This document shows positions 13,153 through 22,580 of a stretch of DNA of 44,412 nucleotides, in pieces. Every line of letters starts with the position of its first letter. Position 1 is the stretch's first letter. The stretch is taken from positions 1 to 44,412 of the forward strand of contig JALHRK010000012.1 of assembly GCA_022841505.1 (NCBI GenBank). The letters run 5' to 3'. This stretch comes from Saprospiraceae bacterium. Its GTDB lineage: Bacteria > Bacteroidota > Bacteroidia > Chitinophagales > Saprospiraceae. Under the pieces are notes generated by a model that saw only the letters and a list, made by a program, of their open reading frames with translations, was not told the origin of the DNA and did no database searches. Made by a program: the position numbers and the translations under genes.

Positions 13153-13221
13153 TCCCTTAACCTTGTTTAAAAGGGAAGATACCGGACATGGGCATTGTGC
13201 TGCCTGAATGACGTTTTTTCT

Positions 13222-14550
13222 TTACAAACGTTTGCGGATGCCGATGGAAGCGCCCAACAGCCAGTATTTCTGGCTGACCGGGAATTCGGGTTTGGTAAAC
13301 GAATCGAGGTAATAACTCAGGTGCGGCTCGAAAAGGATGTGGAAATCGGGCTTCCATTTATAGGCCAGTCCGGCGCTGATGAACCACGCCGTTTCCAACC
13401 GTTTTTTGAACGCCGGATAAGCGTCGGCACGGTTATAGGAGAAACTAACAGGAGTGAGGTCTTCTGGCGACAGGAAAGCGCCTTTCTGTTGGAAAAGCAG
13501 GTTGATGCGAACCCCCGCGCTCAGCAAAAGATCGAATTTTGGTTTCCGCAGATCGAATCCAACCGCAAGCGGAATTTCTACGATCTGGTATTGGTTGGGC
13601 GTGACAATCCGGCGGGTACCGCTGACGTAAGTCGTGTCCGTGCGGACAATTTGGCCGTTGTCGTCATAGGTATTGACAATGGTAATGCGGACTTCGCTTT
13701 CATTCAGGTAATCGAACGCTTCTGTGATCTGGGTATAATTAATGCCCGCCCTGGCAGCAAGGCCAAAGTCAGATACGGCCGTCAACCGTACGCCTGCTCC
13801 AAAAGTATGGCGACTTTTTTCTGTGTTTTCGCGCTGCTCCTTATAGCCTTCGTATTCAGAATCAAGGGCCTCCAGATTGCGGAAAGCAAAACCCGAAGAC
13901 AAGGTCACATCTACATAATGGTACCAGTTTCCGGGAGAAAAGCGCGCGCACTTGGGGTCTGGTGGGAAAAGACCTTTCAGCAATTCTTTGTCTTCGAAGG
14001 TCACCGGTTCCAATGCCAAAGCCGGCAACATAGAAGCAGTTTTTATGGTTGTAGCTGTTTCTGTCTCCTGATCGTGCACGCTTTCTGATTGCGCTGCGGA
14101 CAACGATTCCTGAGGCGCAATCACTGTTGGGTTGGACTCCGAATCAGCCGGCAATACCTCTGCCTGATCGGCAATTTGAGTGAAAGCAGGCGGAACGAAA
14201 GATTTGGATGATTTTTTTTGTTGTGTAATTTCAGCAACGGCTGATCTGTTTTCTGCTGTAAATGCCTCCAGCGCCGGTTCAGCAGGGATGATGGAAGCAG
14301 CAGGTTTTTCGGGTGTCATTGGAATGGGGAAACTTTGGATGCTCACGACGGATGCATCCCGGGGCCAAACCGCATAAAGCGCCAGTGCGCCAATAGCCGT
14401 TAGAGGCAGAAGCCATAAAGCGATTAAGCGACGACGGGGCTTTACGCTGCGGCTTCGCTCGATCGCATCCCAGAGATGCATAGGCGCATCCTGCCCGTGG
14501 TTCTCAAGACGGGTACGAAACAGATCATCAATCGGATGTCGGCGGTTCAT
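13222..14550 (-). CDS. Membrane-anchored protein with C-terminal outer-membrane beta-barrel, putative anti-sigma
   Basis: 442 residues in three parts. Residues 1-41 (PIDDLFRTRLENHGQDAPMHLW) form a short acidic-then-basic cytoplasmic segment of the kind seen in small Bacteroidetes anti-sigma-like proteins. Residues 42-62 (LIALWLLPLTAIGALALYAVW) are a transmembrane helix. A Ser/Ala/Glu-rich linker of about 125 residues follows, then from about residue 195 a set of amphipathic beta strands ending LLGASIGIRKRL, typical of a PorT-like outer-membrane barrel. A single chain could thus touch cytoplasm, inner membrane, periplasm and outer membrane. The start codon overlaps the sigma-factor stop (ATGA), implying translational coupling. 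The anti-sigma role is inferred from position and layout, not from a recognised zinc or ASD motif. Confidence 0.75.
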   Translation of the reverse strand: MNRRHPIDDLFRTRLENHGQDAPMHLWDAIERSRSVKPRRRLIALWLLPLTAIGALALYAVWPRDASVVSIQSFPIPMTPEKPAASIIPAEPALEAFTAENRSAVAEITQQKKSSKSFVPPAFTQIADQAEVLPADSESNPTVIAPQESLSAAQSESVHDQETETATTIKTASMLPALALEPVTFEDKELLKGLFPPDPKCARFSPGNWYHYVDVTLSSGFAFRNLEALDSEYEGYKEQRENTEKSRHTFGAGVRLTAVSDFGLAARAGINYTQITEAFDYLNESEVRITIVNTYDDNGQIVRTDTTYVSGTRRIVTPNQYQIVEIPLAVGFDLRKPKFDLLLSAGVRINLLFQQKGAFLSPEDLTPVSFSYNRADAYPAFKKRLETAWFISAGLAYKWKPDFHILFEPHLSYYLDSFTKPEFPVSQKYWLLGASIGIRKRL

Positions 14551-15083
14551 ACAGCTATTTTTTGTAGTGCTTCGATTCGGGCCTGCAATTGTTTTCTGGC
14601 TTTCACCAATTGCGAGCGCGAAGTGCTTTCCTGAATATTGAGCAGGTCGGCAATTTCTTTATGACTGTAGCCTTCAATGGCGTACAAATTAAACACAACG
14701 CGGTAGCCTTCGGGCAATTCCGCAATCAATTGCAACAATTCTTCTTCATTCAATTGCGCATATACAGACGGCTCCATCGGCGATTCGGGCAAGTATTCTA
14801 TGCCGATATACTCATTCTGGAAGCTCTTTTTGGCGTATTGTTTCAATGCAGTATTGATGACAATCCGCCGGATCCAGCCCTCAAAGGATCCTTTGAAGCT
14901 AAAATCGGCTACGTGATCGAACACCTTGATGAAAGCTTCCTGCAAAAGATCTTCGGCTTCCATGTGGTGGCGGGCATAGCGTTGGCATACCACCATCATC
15001 TTTCCGGCATAGCGTCGGAAAACTTCCCGCTGACAGTCGCGGTTTTCCTCAATGCAGCCTTTGATAAGATCGGCCTCTGACAC
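14547..15083 (-). CDS. ECF (sigma-24 type) RNA polymerase sigma factor
   Basis: 178 residues. Region 2 (AEDLLQEAFIKVFDHVADFSFKGSFEGWIRRIVINTAL, about residues 42-80) binds core polymerase and the -10 element. Region 4 (LIAELPEGYRVVFNLYAIEGYSHKEIADLLNIQESTSRSQLVKARKQL, about residues 117-165) has the -35-reading helix-turn-helix. It is first in a minus-strand set with the barrel protein and lipoprotein, so it probably directs a stimulon controlled by envelope state. The ATG gives MSEADLIKGC, standard for this subfamily. A minus-strand terminator hairpin lies about 150 bases upstream of it. No FecR-type anti-sigma or SusC/D genes adjoin. Confidence 0.93.
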   Translation of the reverse strand: MSEADLIKGCIEENRDCQREVFRRYAGKMMVVCQRYARHHMEAEDLLQEAFIKVFDHVADFSFKGSFEGWIRRIVINTALKQYAKKSFQNEYIGIEYLPESPMEPSVYAQLNEEELLQLIAELPEGYRVVFNLYAIEGYSHKEIADLLNIQESTSRSQLVKARKQLQARIEALQKIAV

Positions 15084-15230
15084 GCGCTTGTATTACCTGA
15101 TAATGTAGATGCTATATTAAACGCAAGTGCTGCTTGCTTCATTTGCCGAACAATATAATTATTTCTGGTTTGGAATTCCCCATCCGGCAGGTTAAAATCA
15201 ATTTCTGTCGCCCGGCTGTTATTCCAAAAC

Positions 15231-15259: not shown

Positions 15260-15405
15260 AAATACATCTTATTCCTGTTGAAGTCATTTTCACGTGGTAG
15301 AGTCTTTTAATTTCGATTTCGCTGCTTTTAACCCCCAAATCTTTTTATCAAGCGTTACTTTCGCGTGCTGTATTGGCACACACAAAACTCCAGAGGCCCG
15401 CTGTT

Positions 15406-15413
15406 TATCTTTG
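15406..15413 (+). promoter_or_regulatory. Promoter -7 box before the TonB-dependent receptor
   Basis: TATCTTTG, an exact TAnnTTTG match, lies 25 bases before the chosen start codon at 15438. It supports that start over an in-frame ATG at 15294, which would place the promoter inside the gene. No good -33 TTTG is seen. Confidence 0.45.
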
Positions 15414-15437
15414 AACGTTCCTACAAAATTCATCATC

Positions 15438-17771
15438 ATGACGATACGAATTACGCTATTGCTTTTGTTGTCAGGGAGTTGCTTTGCCGTTTCGGCACAG
15501 GAGCCCGCACTGAAACAGACCCTGCGCGGCAAGGTATTGGATGCAGACACCCGCCAGCCCCTTGTTGGCGCCACGGTATCCCTGCTGTCCACCAATATGG
15601 GCGCCACAACCGATACTTCCGGGGCTTATCGCATCACTGGCACACCGGTAGGGCGCTATCAGCTTCAGGTCAGTTATGTGGGTTATGCCTCGCAAACCAT
15701 TCCCGAAGTGCTGGTTGAGTCCGGAAAAGAAACCGTTTTAGACCTCGAATTGCAGGAACAGGTTGAAGAAATCGGGACGGTGGTGGTGCGCGCTGCGAGA
15801 AGCGATGCAGCGGTCGCCTGCCCTACGGTGCGCAGCCTTTCCGTAGAAGAAACCCTCCGTTTCCCGGCTACTTTTTACGACCCGGCCCGGCTCGCAGCCA
15901 CTTTTGCGGGAGTTGTGAACGACAACGACCAGGCAAACGGGTTGTCGGTTCGTGGGAATTCGCCCAACGGCGCAATCTGGCGGCTTGAAGGCTTAGACAT
16001 TGTCAATCCCAACCACACACCCAATGCAGGTACGTTCAGCGATCGAACGACGCAAAACAGCGGCGGCGTTAATATCCTCAGCGCGCAGTTGCTTGATTTG
16101 ACCCATTTTTATGCCGGACCTTTCCCGGCCGGGTTTGGCAATGCGCTCTCCGGCGTTATGGATACGCGGCTCAGAAAAGGCAATAGCCAACAACGGGAAT
16201 TCACCGGACAAGCCAGCCTGATCGGACTGGATCTGGCTGCCGAAGGGCCATTTTCGCGAGATTCAGAAGCGTCCTATTTAGTCAATTACCGTTATTCGAC
16301 CATCGGATTGCTTAGCGCGATGGGCCTCGACCTCGGAGATGAGGCGATCCGGTTTCAGGATTTATCGTTCAATTTAGTTTTTCCAGGCAGTAAAGGCGCC
16401 CAATTCACCCTTTTCGGTGTGGGGGGGCAAAGTGAAAATATTTTCAAAACAGAACGGGATTCTACCCTTTGGGAATTTCAAAAAGACCGCTACGACATCA
16501 TTTTTGAGTCGCAAACCGGTATTCTGGGTGCTACCTTCACGCTCCCCGTCGGAACCGGTGGATTGTGGCATACGGCTTTGGGGTATTCCATCCTCGACAG
16601 CCGCCGCTTTGGCGACCGCTTAGATGCCAACTATCAGCCCATAAGAGAAGAAGAAGACGTTTCCGTTCAGCAAAAACTATCCATTCATAGTTTTTACAAC
16701 CAAAAATTCAATGCGCGGTCGAGGCTGCGCGCAGGGTTGTTGGCGACCCGCCAAAACTACGATTTGCTGGCCGTTCAGGCGTTCGATGAAGTGGTGGCCG
16801 AAGGAGCCGGCGGGGGTTGGTGGATTCAGCCTTATGCCAACTGGCAACAACAGTGGCGCCGGTTGACGCTCAATGCCGGACTGCAGGCTTCCTGGTTTAC
16901 TTTCAATGAAACGGGCGCCATAGAACCGCGTTTATCGTTGGAGTGGAAACCAACGGAGCATCAACACCTCAGCATCGCCTACGGCCTGCACAGTCAGTTG
17001 CAGGCGCCTCAGTTGTATTTTGCGGTTGCTGCGCCCCAGGAAAATCGCGACCTGGCTGCTACCAAAGCGCACCATCTTGCGCTGAGCTATCGCCGCGATG
17101 TCACCGAAGCGCTATATTACCGGGTGGAATTGTACCATCAGGATCTGTTCGATGTGCCGGTTAGTGCGACGGCATTTAATACCTTTTCCACGCTCAACCT
17201 CACGGAAGGCACGGTGGAGGAAGCCTTGGTCAATTCGGGCAGCGGCAGGAACTACGGGGCAGAAATTACGGTTCAGCAGCGCTTTGTGCGCAGTTTGTAT
17301 TACTTGATCAATGCAACCTGGTACACGGCGCGATACAAAGGAAGCGACCTGGTTGAGCGGCGCTCGCGTTTCGATGGTGCTTACGCCGCCAATGCCACGA
17401 TTGGCAAAGAATGGGAGCGCAAGCCCCGGAACGGCAAAACCGGAGCCTGGGGCGCGAATGTTCGGGCAATCCTGTCGGGCGGGCTTCGGGACACGCCCAT
17501 TGATGAAGCCGCCTCCGCAGCCCTTGAACGCACGATTTACCAAACGGAACGCGCGTTTGAACTGAAACTGCGCGATTACTTCCGGGTAGACCTCCGGGTA
17601 TATTACCGCCGGAACGGCGCAAACAGCAGCAGCACCCTGGCGCTGGACATCCAGAATGCGAGCAACCAGCAAAACGTGGCGTTCAGCTATTACGACGCCC
17701 AGAAAAAACAGGTGGTGGAGAAGTATCAGTTGGGGTTGATTCCCGTACTCAGCTACCGGATTGCCTTTTAA
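15438..17771 (+). CDS. TonB-dependent receptor with N-terminal carboxypeptidase-like domain
   Basis: Outer-membrane gated transporter of 777 residues. A signal peptide (TIRITLLLLLSGSCFAVSAQ) precedes a carboxypeptidase-D regulatory-like domain (LRGKVLDADTRQPLVGATVSLL..., about residues 28-115), then the plug (about 125-240, with LSVRGNSPNGAIWRLEGLDIVNPNH) and a beta-barrel ending in GLIPVLSYRIAF with terminal Phe. It is a lone receptor without a SusD partner, so its substrate (siderophore, metal complex or peptide) cannot be told. It uses TonB-ExbBD energy. The start was chosen because it begins the signal peptide and follows the TATCTTTG box. Repeat element copy B begins 4 bases after its stop. 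Confidence 0.92.
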   Translation: MTIRITLLLLLSGSCFAVSAQEPALKQTLRGKVLDADTRQPLVGATVSLLSTNMGATTDTSGAYRITGTPVGRYQLQVSYVGYASQTIPEVLVESGKETVLDLELQEQVEEIGTVVVRAARSDAAVACPTVRSLSVEETLRFPATFYDPARLAATFAGVVNDNDQANGLSVRGNSPNGAIWRLEGLDIVNPNHTPNAGTFSDRTTQNSGGVNILSAQLLDLTHFYAGPFPAGFGNALSGVMDTRLRKGNSQQREFTGQASLIGLDLAAEGPFSRDSEASYLVNYRYSTIGLLSAMGLDLGDEAIRFQDLSFNLVFPGSKGAQFTLFGVGGQSENIFKTERDSTLWEFQKDRYDIIFESQTGILGATFTLPVGTGGLWHTALGYSILDSRRFGDRLDANYQPIREEEDVSVQQKLSIHSFYNQKFNARSRLRAGLLATRQNYDLLAVQAFDEVVAEGAGGGWWIQPYANWQQQWRRLTLNAGLQASWFTFNETGAIEPRLSLEWKPTEHQHLSIAYGLHSQLQAPQLYFAVAAPQENRDLAATKAHHLALSYRRDVTEALYYRVELYHQDLFDVPVSATAFNTFSTLNLTEGTVEEALVNSGSGRNYGAEITVQQRFVRSLYYLINATWYTARYKGSDLVERRSRFDGAYAANATIGKEWERKPRNGKTGAWGANVRAILSGGLRDTPIDEAASAALERTIYQTERAFELKLRDYFRVDLRVYYRRNGANSSSTLALDIQNASNQQNVAFSYYDAQKKQVVEKYQLGLIPVLSYRIAF

Positions 17772-20975: not shown

Positions 20976-21707
20976 ATGAAAAAAGAATTGCTCTTCTGCT
21001 TTGTTTTCATGGCAGCCATCCCCCTCGTTTCCGCGCAAAGCACTTGCCTGATCGGGTTACACGGCGGGGTAACTCAAAGTAAATATGTAACACCAGGCGG
21101 ACTCAGCCAACCTTTTCACCGCCAGGAGTCATTTTTCACCGCCAATGCTGGCATAAGCCTGCAGCAGGATTTTAAAGAGAAATTTTACTGGCAAACGGCT
21201 TTACACTATGTAGAATTCGGTGATCGGGTAAAAACAACGGAGGATTTAAGATGGCCAAGTGAATACGATGTTAATGGTGATTATGTACGCGATCCTGCTT
21301 TGCCGCACCGCATACGATATCAGCAAAAAACCGATTATGTAACCTTGCGGGCAGGGGCGGGGTATTACCTCTTGCGAACGGAAAAATTCGGACTTGGGGT
21401 GATGCCTTTTGCGGAAGCCGGATTTTTTATTAAAAACAAAAACGAACAGCAGCTCCTATACGATGATGGCAAAATAGATTTCAACTCCGGCGGTGGATAT
21501 TATGGGGACTCAGCGTTCCGCAACGTAAATGCGTCCGTAGGTCTTGCTCTCAGCTTTCAGGCAAAGGTCGCTTCGAAATTTGATGTTTTTCTTGCCCCGG
21601 ATGCTTCCTATCAATTGCTGTCGGCGACTGTTGAAAATGGCTCCAATGCCAGTACGCGCCGCTATTTTGTAGTTGGGCTGAATGCCGGCGTTTTTTATCG
21701 GCTTTGA
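20976..21707 (+). CDS. Outer-membrane beta-barrel protein, paralogue 1
   Basis: 243 residues with a signal peptide (KKELLFCFVFMAAIPLVSAQ), then alternating amphipathic strands ending in AGVFYRL, the profile of a small (about 8-strand) PorT/OmpW-like outer-membrane barrel. Landmark segments shared with the next gene are LIGLHGGVTQS, QDFKEKFYWQT, YVRDPALPHR, YQQKTDY, LRAGAGYYLLRTEKFGLGVMPFAEAGFFIKNK and SKFDVFLAPDASYQLL. Function is unknown; such barrels often serve as ligand-binding or structural surface proteins. It is the first of a tandem pair on the plus strand, without an obvious TAnnTTTG box. Confidence 0.82.
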   Translation: MKKELLFCFVFMAAIPLVSAQSTCLIGLHGGVTQSKYVTPGGLSQPFHRQESFFTANAGISLQQDFKEKFYWQTALHYVEFGDRVKTTEDLRWPSEYDVNGDYVRDPALPHRIRYQQKTDYVTLRAGAGYYLLRTEKFGLGVMPFAEAGFFIKNKNEQQLLYDDGKIDFNSGGGYYGDSAFRNVNASVGLALSFQAKVASKFDVFLAPDASYQLLSATVENGSNASTRRYFVVGLNAGVFYRL

Positions 21708-21848
21708 TGACTGGTGCTTGAGCGGACATCGTGCTGCCCGGGAATAAGTTAAATTTTGTTAAAACCAATTTTACCATGCAGCGAAATGCACTTTTCCCAG
21801 CTTATACTGAAAACGTCTAATTCTTTCCCACCTAAACAAAATGAATGT

Positions 21849-22580
21849 ATGAAAAAAGAATTGCTCTTTTCCCTTTGTTTCCTTGCAGGAACCACCCTGC
21901 TTTCCGCGCAAAGCAATTGCCTGATGGGTTTACACGGCGGGGTCACCCAAAGTCAATATATAAGACCGGACGGAGCCCACCGAGCTTTTAGCAACCGGGA
22001 GCCATTATTCAGCGCCAATGTTGGCATAAGCCTGCGACAGGATTTTAAAGAGAAATTTTACTGGCAAACGACTTTACAGTATCTACAATTCGGTCAGCGG
22101 GTAGTGGTGGAGGATAATTTAATGTGGGGCAGTGAACACGACGGGAGCGGGGGTTATGTACGCGATCCTGCTTTGCCGCACCGCATGGAGTACCAGCAAA
22201 AAACCGACTATCTAACTTTGCGGGCAGGATTGGGGTATTACCTCTTACGCACGGAAAAATTCGGACTTGGGGTGATGCCTTTTGCGGAAGCCGGATTTTT
22301 TATAAAAAACAAAGACGAGCAACGGCTCGTATACGATAATGGTAATGTAGATTCCAGCTCCGGACTTGATTATTATGGCGAGCGTGAGTTTCGGAAAGTA
22401 AACGCCTCAGCAGGTCTTGCCCTCAGCTTTCAGGCAAAGGTGGCTTCAAAGTTTGATGTTTTTCTAGCCCCGGATGCTTCCTATCAATTGCTGGCGGCGA
22501 CTGTTGGCAATGGTGACAATAGCGATACACGCCGTTATTTTGCAATGGGGCTGAATGCGGGCGTTTTTTATCGGCTGTAA
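21849..22580 (+). CDS. Outer-membrane beta-barrel protein, paralogue 2
   Basis: Also 243 residues, with signal peptide KKELLFSLCFLAGTTLLSAQ and the same strand pattern as the gene before it. Differences cluster in predicted loops (for example QYIRPDGAHRAFSNREPLF for KYVTPGGLSQPFHRQESFF, and EDNLMWGSEHDGSGGYV for TEDLRWPSEYDVNGDYV), while strands are nearly unchanged, as expected for surface-exposed loop divergence. ATG at 21849 was chosen because it matches the paralogue start and opens the signal peptide; an in-frame start 31 codons upstream lies in the duplicated leader. It converges with the dadA-like gene. Confidence 0.82.
   Translation: MKKELLFSLCFLAGTTLLSAQSNCLMGLHGGVTQSQYIRPDGAHRAFSNREPLFSANVGISLRQDFKEKFYWQTTLQYLQFGQRVVVEDNLMWGSEHDGSGGYVRDPALPHRMEYQQKTDYLTLRAGLGYYLLRTEKFGLGVMPFAEAGFFIKNKDEQRLVYDNGNVDSSSGLDYYGEREFRKVNASAGLALSFQAKVASKFDVFLAPDASYQLLAATVGNGDNSDTRRYFAMGLNAGVFYRL

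Follow-up and report, generated by a model that had tools for sequence, protein, structure and literature searches.

In the FecR/FecA system an inner-membrane anti-sigma factor connects an outer-membrane barrel with an ECF sigma factor, and RseA, itself an inner-membrane protein, is freed by proteolysis. The closest described systems, for which the literature is cited here throughout from excerpts, join an anti-sigma part and a barrel in one chain. In Bacteroides thetaiotaomicron, Dma2 comprises an anti-sigma part, a transmembrane (TM) helix, a disordered tether and a barrel; the adjacent gene encodes the sigma factor Das2, assigned to ECF21, and das2 goes up on deletion of dma2 (PMC13088901). 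In Phocaeicola vulgatus, M0N98_03760-61 encode an ECF sigma factor followed by an anti-sigma factor that is predicted to span the periplasm and to carry a C-terminal barrel, a pair that has been likened to one of B. fragilis. This anti-sigma factor controls genes that protect against antibacterial toxins; its disruption raises the regulon, toxin attack induces it, and envelope stress has been suggested as the signal (PMC9308784). In a 2026 paper the P. vulgatus protein is described as spanning all five compartments, and stress at the outer membrane is put forward (PMC13114119).

Class I anti-sigma domains have a mean length of 101 residues and four helices, and one is found near just 6% of Bacteroidetes ECF factors. 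The sigma4 and sigma2 surfaces of ECF factors that anti-sigma factors bind are those that otherwise bind -35 DNA and the beta' clamp; in RseA, D11 contacts R149 and R178 of RpoE, and helix 4 contacts sigma2 (PMC7406223). CnrY, of class II, grips the sigma factor with two helices, of which the first lies on sigma4 and the second on sigma2 (PMC7406223, PMC4598750).

The locus described here lies in a window of 44,412 nucleotides, by which we mean the whole stretch of DNA that was analysed. It shares with Dma1/Das1 and Dma2/Das2 the domain order, the adjacent sigma gene and a small operon with a further gene, although it belongs to another Bacteroidota family, the likeness is one of architecture, judged by description, and the third gene encodes a lipoprotein without a Pfam match in place of the DUF4943 or NigD protein of the Dma systems (PMC13088901). 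EcfO/Reo of B. fragilis and M0N98_03760-61 likewise consist of a sigma factor followed by a spanning barrel anti-sigma factor and have lipoproteins in the regulon, but these are NigD proteins, unlike the window lipoprotein (PMC9308784, PMC13114119). The 442-residue window protein has an N-terminus that contacts the sigma factor according to co-variation, a single TM helix, a long disordered tether and a modelled barrel, and an ECF gene is adjacent. Since this architecture has been published for Bacteroides and Phocaeicola, the window system is a further member of the Dma (Reo) type and not a new layout. We consider it quite probable that the pair is a sigma/anti-sigma system of this type, with a motif clamp, tether, barrel and release step, an autoregulated operon and a lipoprotein under its control.

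The layout, the barrel model, the pairing with sigma genes, the co-variation, the promoter conservation and the lipoprotein linkage were obtained by computation. The work would extend the Dma type beyond gut Bacteroidales, and it adds the sigma interface, the occurrence of the motif in several families, two further builds (split and tandem), the promoter and a putative lipoprotein target. FecR and FecA are two proteins, whereas the window system holds both parts in one chain. No FecR or TonB-receptor domain was found in this protein by Pfam or among the NCBIfam matches listed; membership of the FecR family was rejected for want of a FecR match in either collection, and the preliminary description was right that the layout resembles the FecR/TonB-receptor system without being one.

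Gene order, protein architecture and occurrence

The sigma ORF matches Sigma70_r2 and Sigma70_r4_2, both above cut-off, in a Pfam run that took in seven window proteins; against NCBIfam, among the 25 of 103 rows listed, the superfamily model alone is above cut-off. The features of the locus are collected in Table 1, and the ORF coordinates confirm that the sigma stop and the start of the 442-residue ORF share the four bases ATGA, as the preliminary description had stated. That description had also divided the protein into a short cytoplasmic segment, one TM helix, a disordered linker of about 125 residues and a C-terminal barrel. Hydropathy and an AlphaFold2 model (31-row alignment, whole-chain pTM 0.54, helices at residues 6-15, 24-35 and 41-61) agree with this order. 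The disorder of the linker holds, most of residues 81-204 having a pLDDT below 50, while its length is corrected to about 140 residues (62-204). The barrel (205-442) is modelled confidently, mostly at a pLDDT of at least 90, and is OmpA-like, as was foreseen in outline for the C-terminal half.

Table 1. Coordinates of the features of the locus, with the basis of each assignment
Feature	Positions	Strand	Basis
Das-like ECF sigma factor of 178 aa, starting with GTG	14547-15083	-	ORF list; Pfam domains
Putative anti-sigma/barrel protein, 442 aa	13222-14550	-	ORF, relatives' loci, AlphaFold2 model
Putative anti-sigma motif, residues 1-35	14446-14550	-	helices 6-15 and 24-35 modelled; couplings with permutation null
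Inner-membrane TM helix, residues 41-61	14368-14430	-	hydropathy and model
Periplasmic tether, residues 62-204, mostly disordered, includes Cys201	13939-14367	-	pLDDT, relatives, cysteine count
Predicted outer-membrane beta-barrel, OmpA-like, residues 205-442	13225-13938	-	model, structural matches
Lipoprotein, 314 aa	12208-13152	-	recurrent operon partner, likely regulon member; own promoter site
Promoter site P1, upstream of sigma gene	15298-15327	-	PWM 24.6
Promoter site P2, just ahead of sigma start	15106-15135	-	PWM 16.7
Promoter site P3, just ahead of lipoprotein	13176-13205	-	PWM 23.1

The best structural alignments of the barrel are with 8-stranded OmpA-type barrels (for OmpA, Z 17.4, rmsd 2.6 and 166 aligned residues), in a list that OmpA-like rows lead and from which the absence of other barrel types is uninformative. 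The 50 Foldseek entries taken from among the matches listed are membrane barrels throughout, one of them designed, and the model places the domain, by its fold, presumably in the outer membrane. In 105 proteins with a strong, complete match to the barrel HMM, the tether from TM end to barrel start measures 120-261 residues (median 169), its ends being drawn from hydropathy and HMM and accurate to perhaps ten residues. Cys201 (13948-13950), the sole cysteine of the window protein, lies at the junction of tether and barrel; a junction cysteine is found in 91 of these 105 relatives, and 74 have exactly one cysteine C-terminal of the TM helix. Soon after the TM helix lies the sequence FPIP (residues 74-77, 14320-14331), of which FP(I) recurs in many alignment rows and which could be a protease or binding site.

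Upstream, a divergent gene (15294-17771) encodes a protein of receptor-like length that contains a carboxypeptidase-regulatory-like domain and matches the SusC/RagA model in part and below cut-off (57 of 368 bits); its listed start overlaps P1, and the true start is probably nearer 15438. Two genes next to each other, at 20976-21707 and 21756-22580, match the outer-membrane barrel family PF13568, the first of them below its cut-off.

Of 150 Saprospiraceae genomes sampled, 124 have a match to the 442-residue protein and 26 do not. A sigma ORF lies directly upstream in all 31 loci compared (the window's own, one paralogue and 29 relatives), with the 4-base overlap in 27 when translation is assumed to start at the Met closest to the sigma stop. 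A scan of genome contigs with the window protein matched one record, from the Saprospiraceae (L032). The genome searches by protein or motif were run within the Bacteroidota; of 395 genomes drawn from the phylum, 113 match the full-length profile and 282 do not. The N-terminal profile A2 was matched in 106/120, 111/117, 56/92, 97/98 and 97/101 genomes of five further families, which were chosen for matches already shown in the phylum-wide search, so that the six samples from outside the Saprospiraceae are not random. The E cut-off was 0.001, or 0.01 in the 92-genome family, where several matches are to the TM part only; kinship labels put this family outside the window's class.

Pairing was counted on loci that were never fetched by the sigma gene. 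A sigma ORF stands just upstream of 402 of the 409 motif ORFs, and in 25 of 30 loci of the 92-genome family; the conserved pairing with ECF genes on which the preliminary description depended is thereby found both in close relatives and more widely. All seven motif ORFs without a sigma ORF (L240, L243, L247, L250, L251, L062 and L161) were kept in the total. L240, L243, L247 and L250 are probably false, because the match begins at profile position 15 or later and covers mainly the TM part. L062 (422 aa) and L161 are apparently genuine motif proteins, with the sigma gene absent upstream in the DNA examined; the genome of L062 carries another copy with a sigma gene (L009).

The two-helix motif and its predicted contact with the sigma factor

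In the anti-sigma part, where the preliminary description had recognised no motif, there is a two-helix unit of about 35 residues that is widespread across families and sigma-adjacent in the proportion given above. Neither Pfam nor the NCBIfam matches listed include an anti-sigma domain for the 442-residue protein, and the N-terminal motif profile matched no anti-sigma chain among PDB sequences, a search that a short motif can escape. The predicted contact residues are D8 and F11 in helix 1 and Q20, P23, W27 and I30 in the loop and helix 2, with W27 being W in 369 of 384 sequences.

Co-variation was computed by mean-field DCA on 384 distinct adjacent pairs (172 sigma and 45 motif columns, with an effective number of sequences of about 327 at 80%). 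The top inter-protein coupling, between sigma R163 and motif D8, is 4.76, against 4.43 for the best intra-sigma coupling at a separation of at least 5. It is followed by V31-Q20 (3.02), L159-D8 (2.14), E44-P23 (2.08) and R15-S35 (1.74) and, at lower rank, by Q48-I30, V31-H18, L116-F11, L47-L26 and I52-I30. The maximum in 60 permutations within sigma clusters was 2.62, and 13 couplings above 1.3 were observed against a null mean of 2.0 and a null maximum of 4. Restricted to the 209 pairs of the fused class, the analysis gives 3.44 for V31-Q20 and 3.21 for R163-D8, compared with 2.63 for the top intra-sigma coupling. It is this co-variation that supports the contact between cytoplasmic part and sigma factor considered in the preliminary description.

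The residues found at the R163-D8 position are R-D in 287 of the 384 pairs, K-E in 45, R-E in 30 and K-D in 4: a D partner goes nearly always with sigma R, and an E partner more often with the shorter K. The pair (R-D or K-E) is, to judge by these exchanges, a salt bridge. Among the 13 couplings above 1.3, three connect helix 1 with sigma4 and seven connect the loop or helix 2 with sigma2 and its N-terminal flank, which suggests that helix 1 points mainly toward sigma4 and helix 2 mainly toward sigma2; K161-A22, V58-L10 and I144-S33 fall outside this division. R163 aligns without gaps in its helix to an arginine of AlgU (6in7). By the end coordinates of the match to 1or7, it corresponds to RpoE R178, provided that the chain has three extra N-terminal residues, which we take to be the case. 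The RseA D11-R178 contact is then the counterpart of D8-R163, and contact with both sigma4 and sigma2 is likewise the pattern described for class I factors (PMC7406223). The motif also resembles CnrY in having two helices that address sigma4 and then sigma2 (from the model and co-variation, with 10 of 13 couplings in agreement), but CnrY works with a periplasmic metal sensor, CnrX, and the window protein with a barrel (PMC7406223, PMC4598750). The proposed D8/R163 interface is specified at the level of residues and can be addressed by one charge swap.

Fused, split and tandem builds and possible routes of the signal

The ORFs of the 384 pairs fall into two groups by length, short (fewer than 330 residues after the motif) and long: 75 are complete and short, 204 are long and 105 are cut at the end of the locus. 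The barrel HMM matches 175 of the 204 long ORFs and none of the 75 short ones. Behind 55 of the short forms lies another ORF, with a signal-peptide-like start by hydropathy in 52 cases; 28 of these ORFs are complete. Ten of the 28 were compared with Pfam: seven score above cut-off for a family of outer-membrane barrels, one scores below cut-off and two match nothing. As barrel families stand behind short ORFs, the module also exists with its barrel encoded separately, by an adjacent gene. In the split class the periplasmic tails measure 159-230 residues (median 190, n = 72), and L050, L053, L091, L109 and L299 are examples with the motif, the TM helix, a long tail and no barrel. The existence of a fused and a split version speaks for a joint function of barrel and anti-sigma part. 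No split form was met in the excerpts of the Dma/Reo literature, which were chosen for other features of these systems.

In a tandem build, found in 11 of 402 ORFs from two families (L018, L038, L039, L150, L152, L156, L219, L221, L329, L338 and L346), two to four copies of the motif precede the TM helix. Copies were counted by HMM, after a loose regular expression had given implausible counts and been rejected, and for the fourth copy of L038 the basis is a weak hit together with reading by eye. D8 of the TM-proximal copy and sigma R163 are kept in all 11 cases; by reading, D and W are kept in every copy of L038 and L221, and are not kept in one copy of L338 or in the copies of L156. Multivalent sigma binding is possible. 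In the excerpts covered, whose scope does not include the founding 2024 Dma paper, no published description of the tandem form or of the promoter treated below was found.

The motif may constitute a phylum-wide anti-sigma module, in fused, split and tandem builds that all convey the condition of the outer membrane to the transcription machinery, filling the gap left by class I. Since most tandem copies retain the contact residues, one tethered protein could perhaps hold several sigma factors; we regard this generalisation as evenly poised between right and wrong. Such a module is a candidate regulator for the numerous ECF factors of Bacteroidota without a class I anti-sigma domain nearby.

For the window locus, the N-terminal motif would clamp the ECF sigma factor with helix 1 on sigma4 and helix 2 and the preceding loop on sigma2. 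The sigma factor would be held inactive, because the clamped surfaces are those that bind -35 DNA and the beta' clamp. Through the TM helix and the tether, about 140 residues long, the complex would be linked to a barrel of the 8-stranded type in the outer membrane, and a change in that membrane would free the sigma factor to transcribe its own operon and the lipoprotein gene through the shared promoter. Leaving the trigger step aside, we hold this Dma-type explanation to be a likely one. The trigger that we prefer, though tentatively and at somewhat less than even confidence, is disturbed outer-membrane assembly, which would remove the anti-sigma factor, probably by proteolysis, because the barrel would be a client of that assembly. 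A client model, in which persistence of the anti-sigma factor depends on assembly of the barrel, would on reasoning suit fused and split forms alike.

The sigma factor might instead be freed without proteolysis, as the preliminary description envisaged, by a pull or change of shape of the barrel that the linker relays to the TM helix and motif. The fused tether does have a floor in length, and the tails of the split class are just as long, with a minimum of 159, as a spanning constraint predicts. Yet a disordered chain of 120-261 residues would be slack and transmit force poorly unless stretched, its length varies twofold, and the split-class tail has no covalent join to a barrel, so that this direct route seems unlikely; the excerpts of the Dma/Reo literature contained no published test of release without proteolysis. 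Comparison of the natural fused and split forms can discriminate between two signal routes, a covalent tether and barrel contact. It is doubtful, if slightly less so, that release follows when a glycan, peptide or toxin binds to the outer loops of the barrel, as the Dma2 authors propose in the text available, where a glycan at the surface is hypothesised. A receptor may adjoin the locus, given the carboxypeptidase-regulatory domain and partial SusC/RagA match of the gene at 15294-17771.

The 442-residue protein could also be no anti-sigma factor at all and simply an outer-membrane protein with a TM segment that shares the operon, which would explain why Pfam, NCBIfam and the PDB profile search gave no anti-sigma match. 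This reading was rejected on the co-variation and its permutation test; adjacency in 402 of 409 cases and the published experiments on the same architecture, as excerpted (PMC13088901, PMC9308784), also speak against it, and we think it very improbable.

The predicted shared promoter and the lipoprotein

The lipobox cysteine, Cys17, is invariant in the 27 alignment rows of the lipoprotein, which is matched in 67 of 120 family genomes, in some to part of the protein. Its model has a mean pLDDT of 90.2, and comparison with the PDB gave no match at an E of 0.001 or better. When loci were fetched by the lipoprotein alone, a Dma-type barrel ORF stood directly upstream in 23 of the best 30, the window's own and a same-genus locus included, which marks the lipoprotein as a recurrent partner.

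A common promoter, ARGCARC-N16-G-N2-TCT, lies ahead of the sigma gene and of the lipoprotein gene. At L003, the locus from the same genus, three sites with almost identical spacing score 25.7 (P1), 18.6 (P2) and 20.8 (P3). ARGCAGC occurs upstream of 55 of 87 sigma genes in the family, against a mean of 2.8 and a maximum of 6 in 50 Markov-resampled sets, and upstream of 20 of 297 outside it; the promoter core is a family trait. In 46 aligned sites, where the second element was not selected for, G is found at +23 in 35, and T, C and T at +26 to +28 in 38, 38 and 37. The PWM was built from sigma upstream regions, so its sites in 57 of 86 such regions are partly circular, whereas the lipoprotein sites are independent of the training set. 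Six of seven relocated lipoprotein genes, lying away from a Dma gene, have a site of at least 15 within 140 bases upstream, the seventh (L448) having none at score 15. For adjacent lipoproteins, 20 of the 23 were scanned (L422, L431 and L438 were left out), and 11 have a site of at least 15 within 260 bases and 9 do not. Elsewhere in the family loci the matrix gave 26 hits in 630,334 positions.

From the shared sites, their conservation and the lipoprotein linkage, it is very likely that the lipoprotein is a direct target and the sigma operon autoregulated. This supplies a first target and a promoter motif for a Dma-type system. The motif is not among the B. thetaiotaomicron promoter motifs compared, as far as the excerpts give them. 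In the 7.5-Mb window genome, a first pattern gave 16 hits against 10 for the reversed control, and a strict pattern 10 against 3, three of the ten being within 2.2 kb at the locus. One further site in the window scores at least 15 (30534, minus strand, 15.5). Promoter-like sites also precede genes for large, apparently secreted proteins at L452 (C2), L458 (C67), L463 (C190) and L470 (C104) of the same genome, which are candidate members of the regulon.
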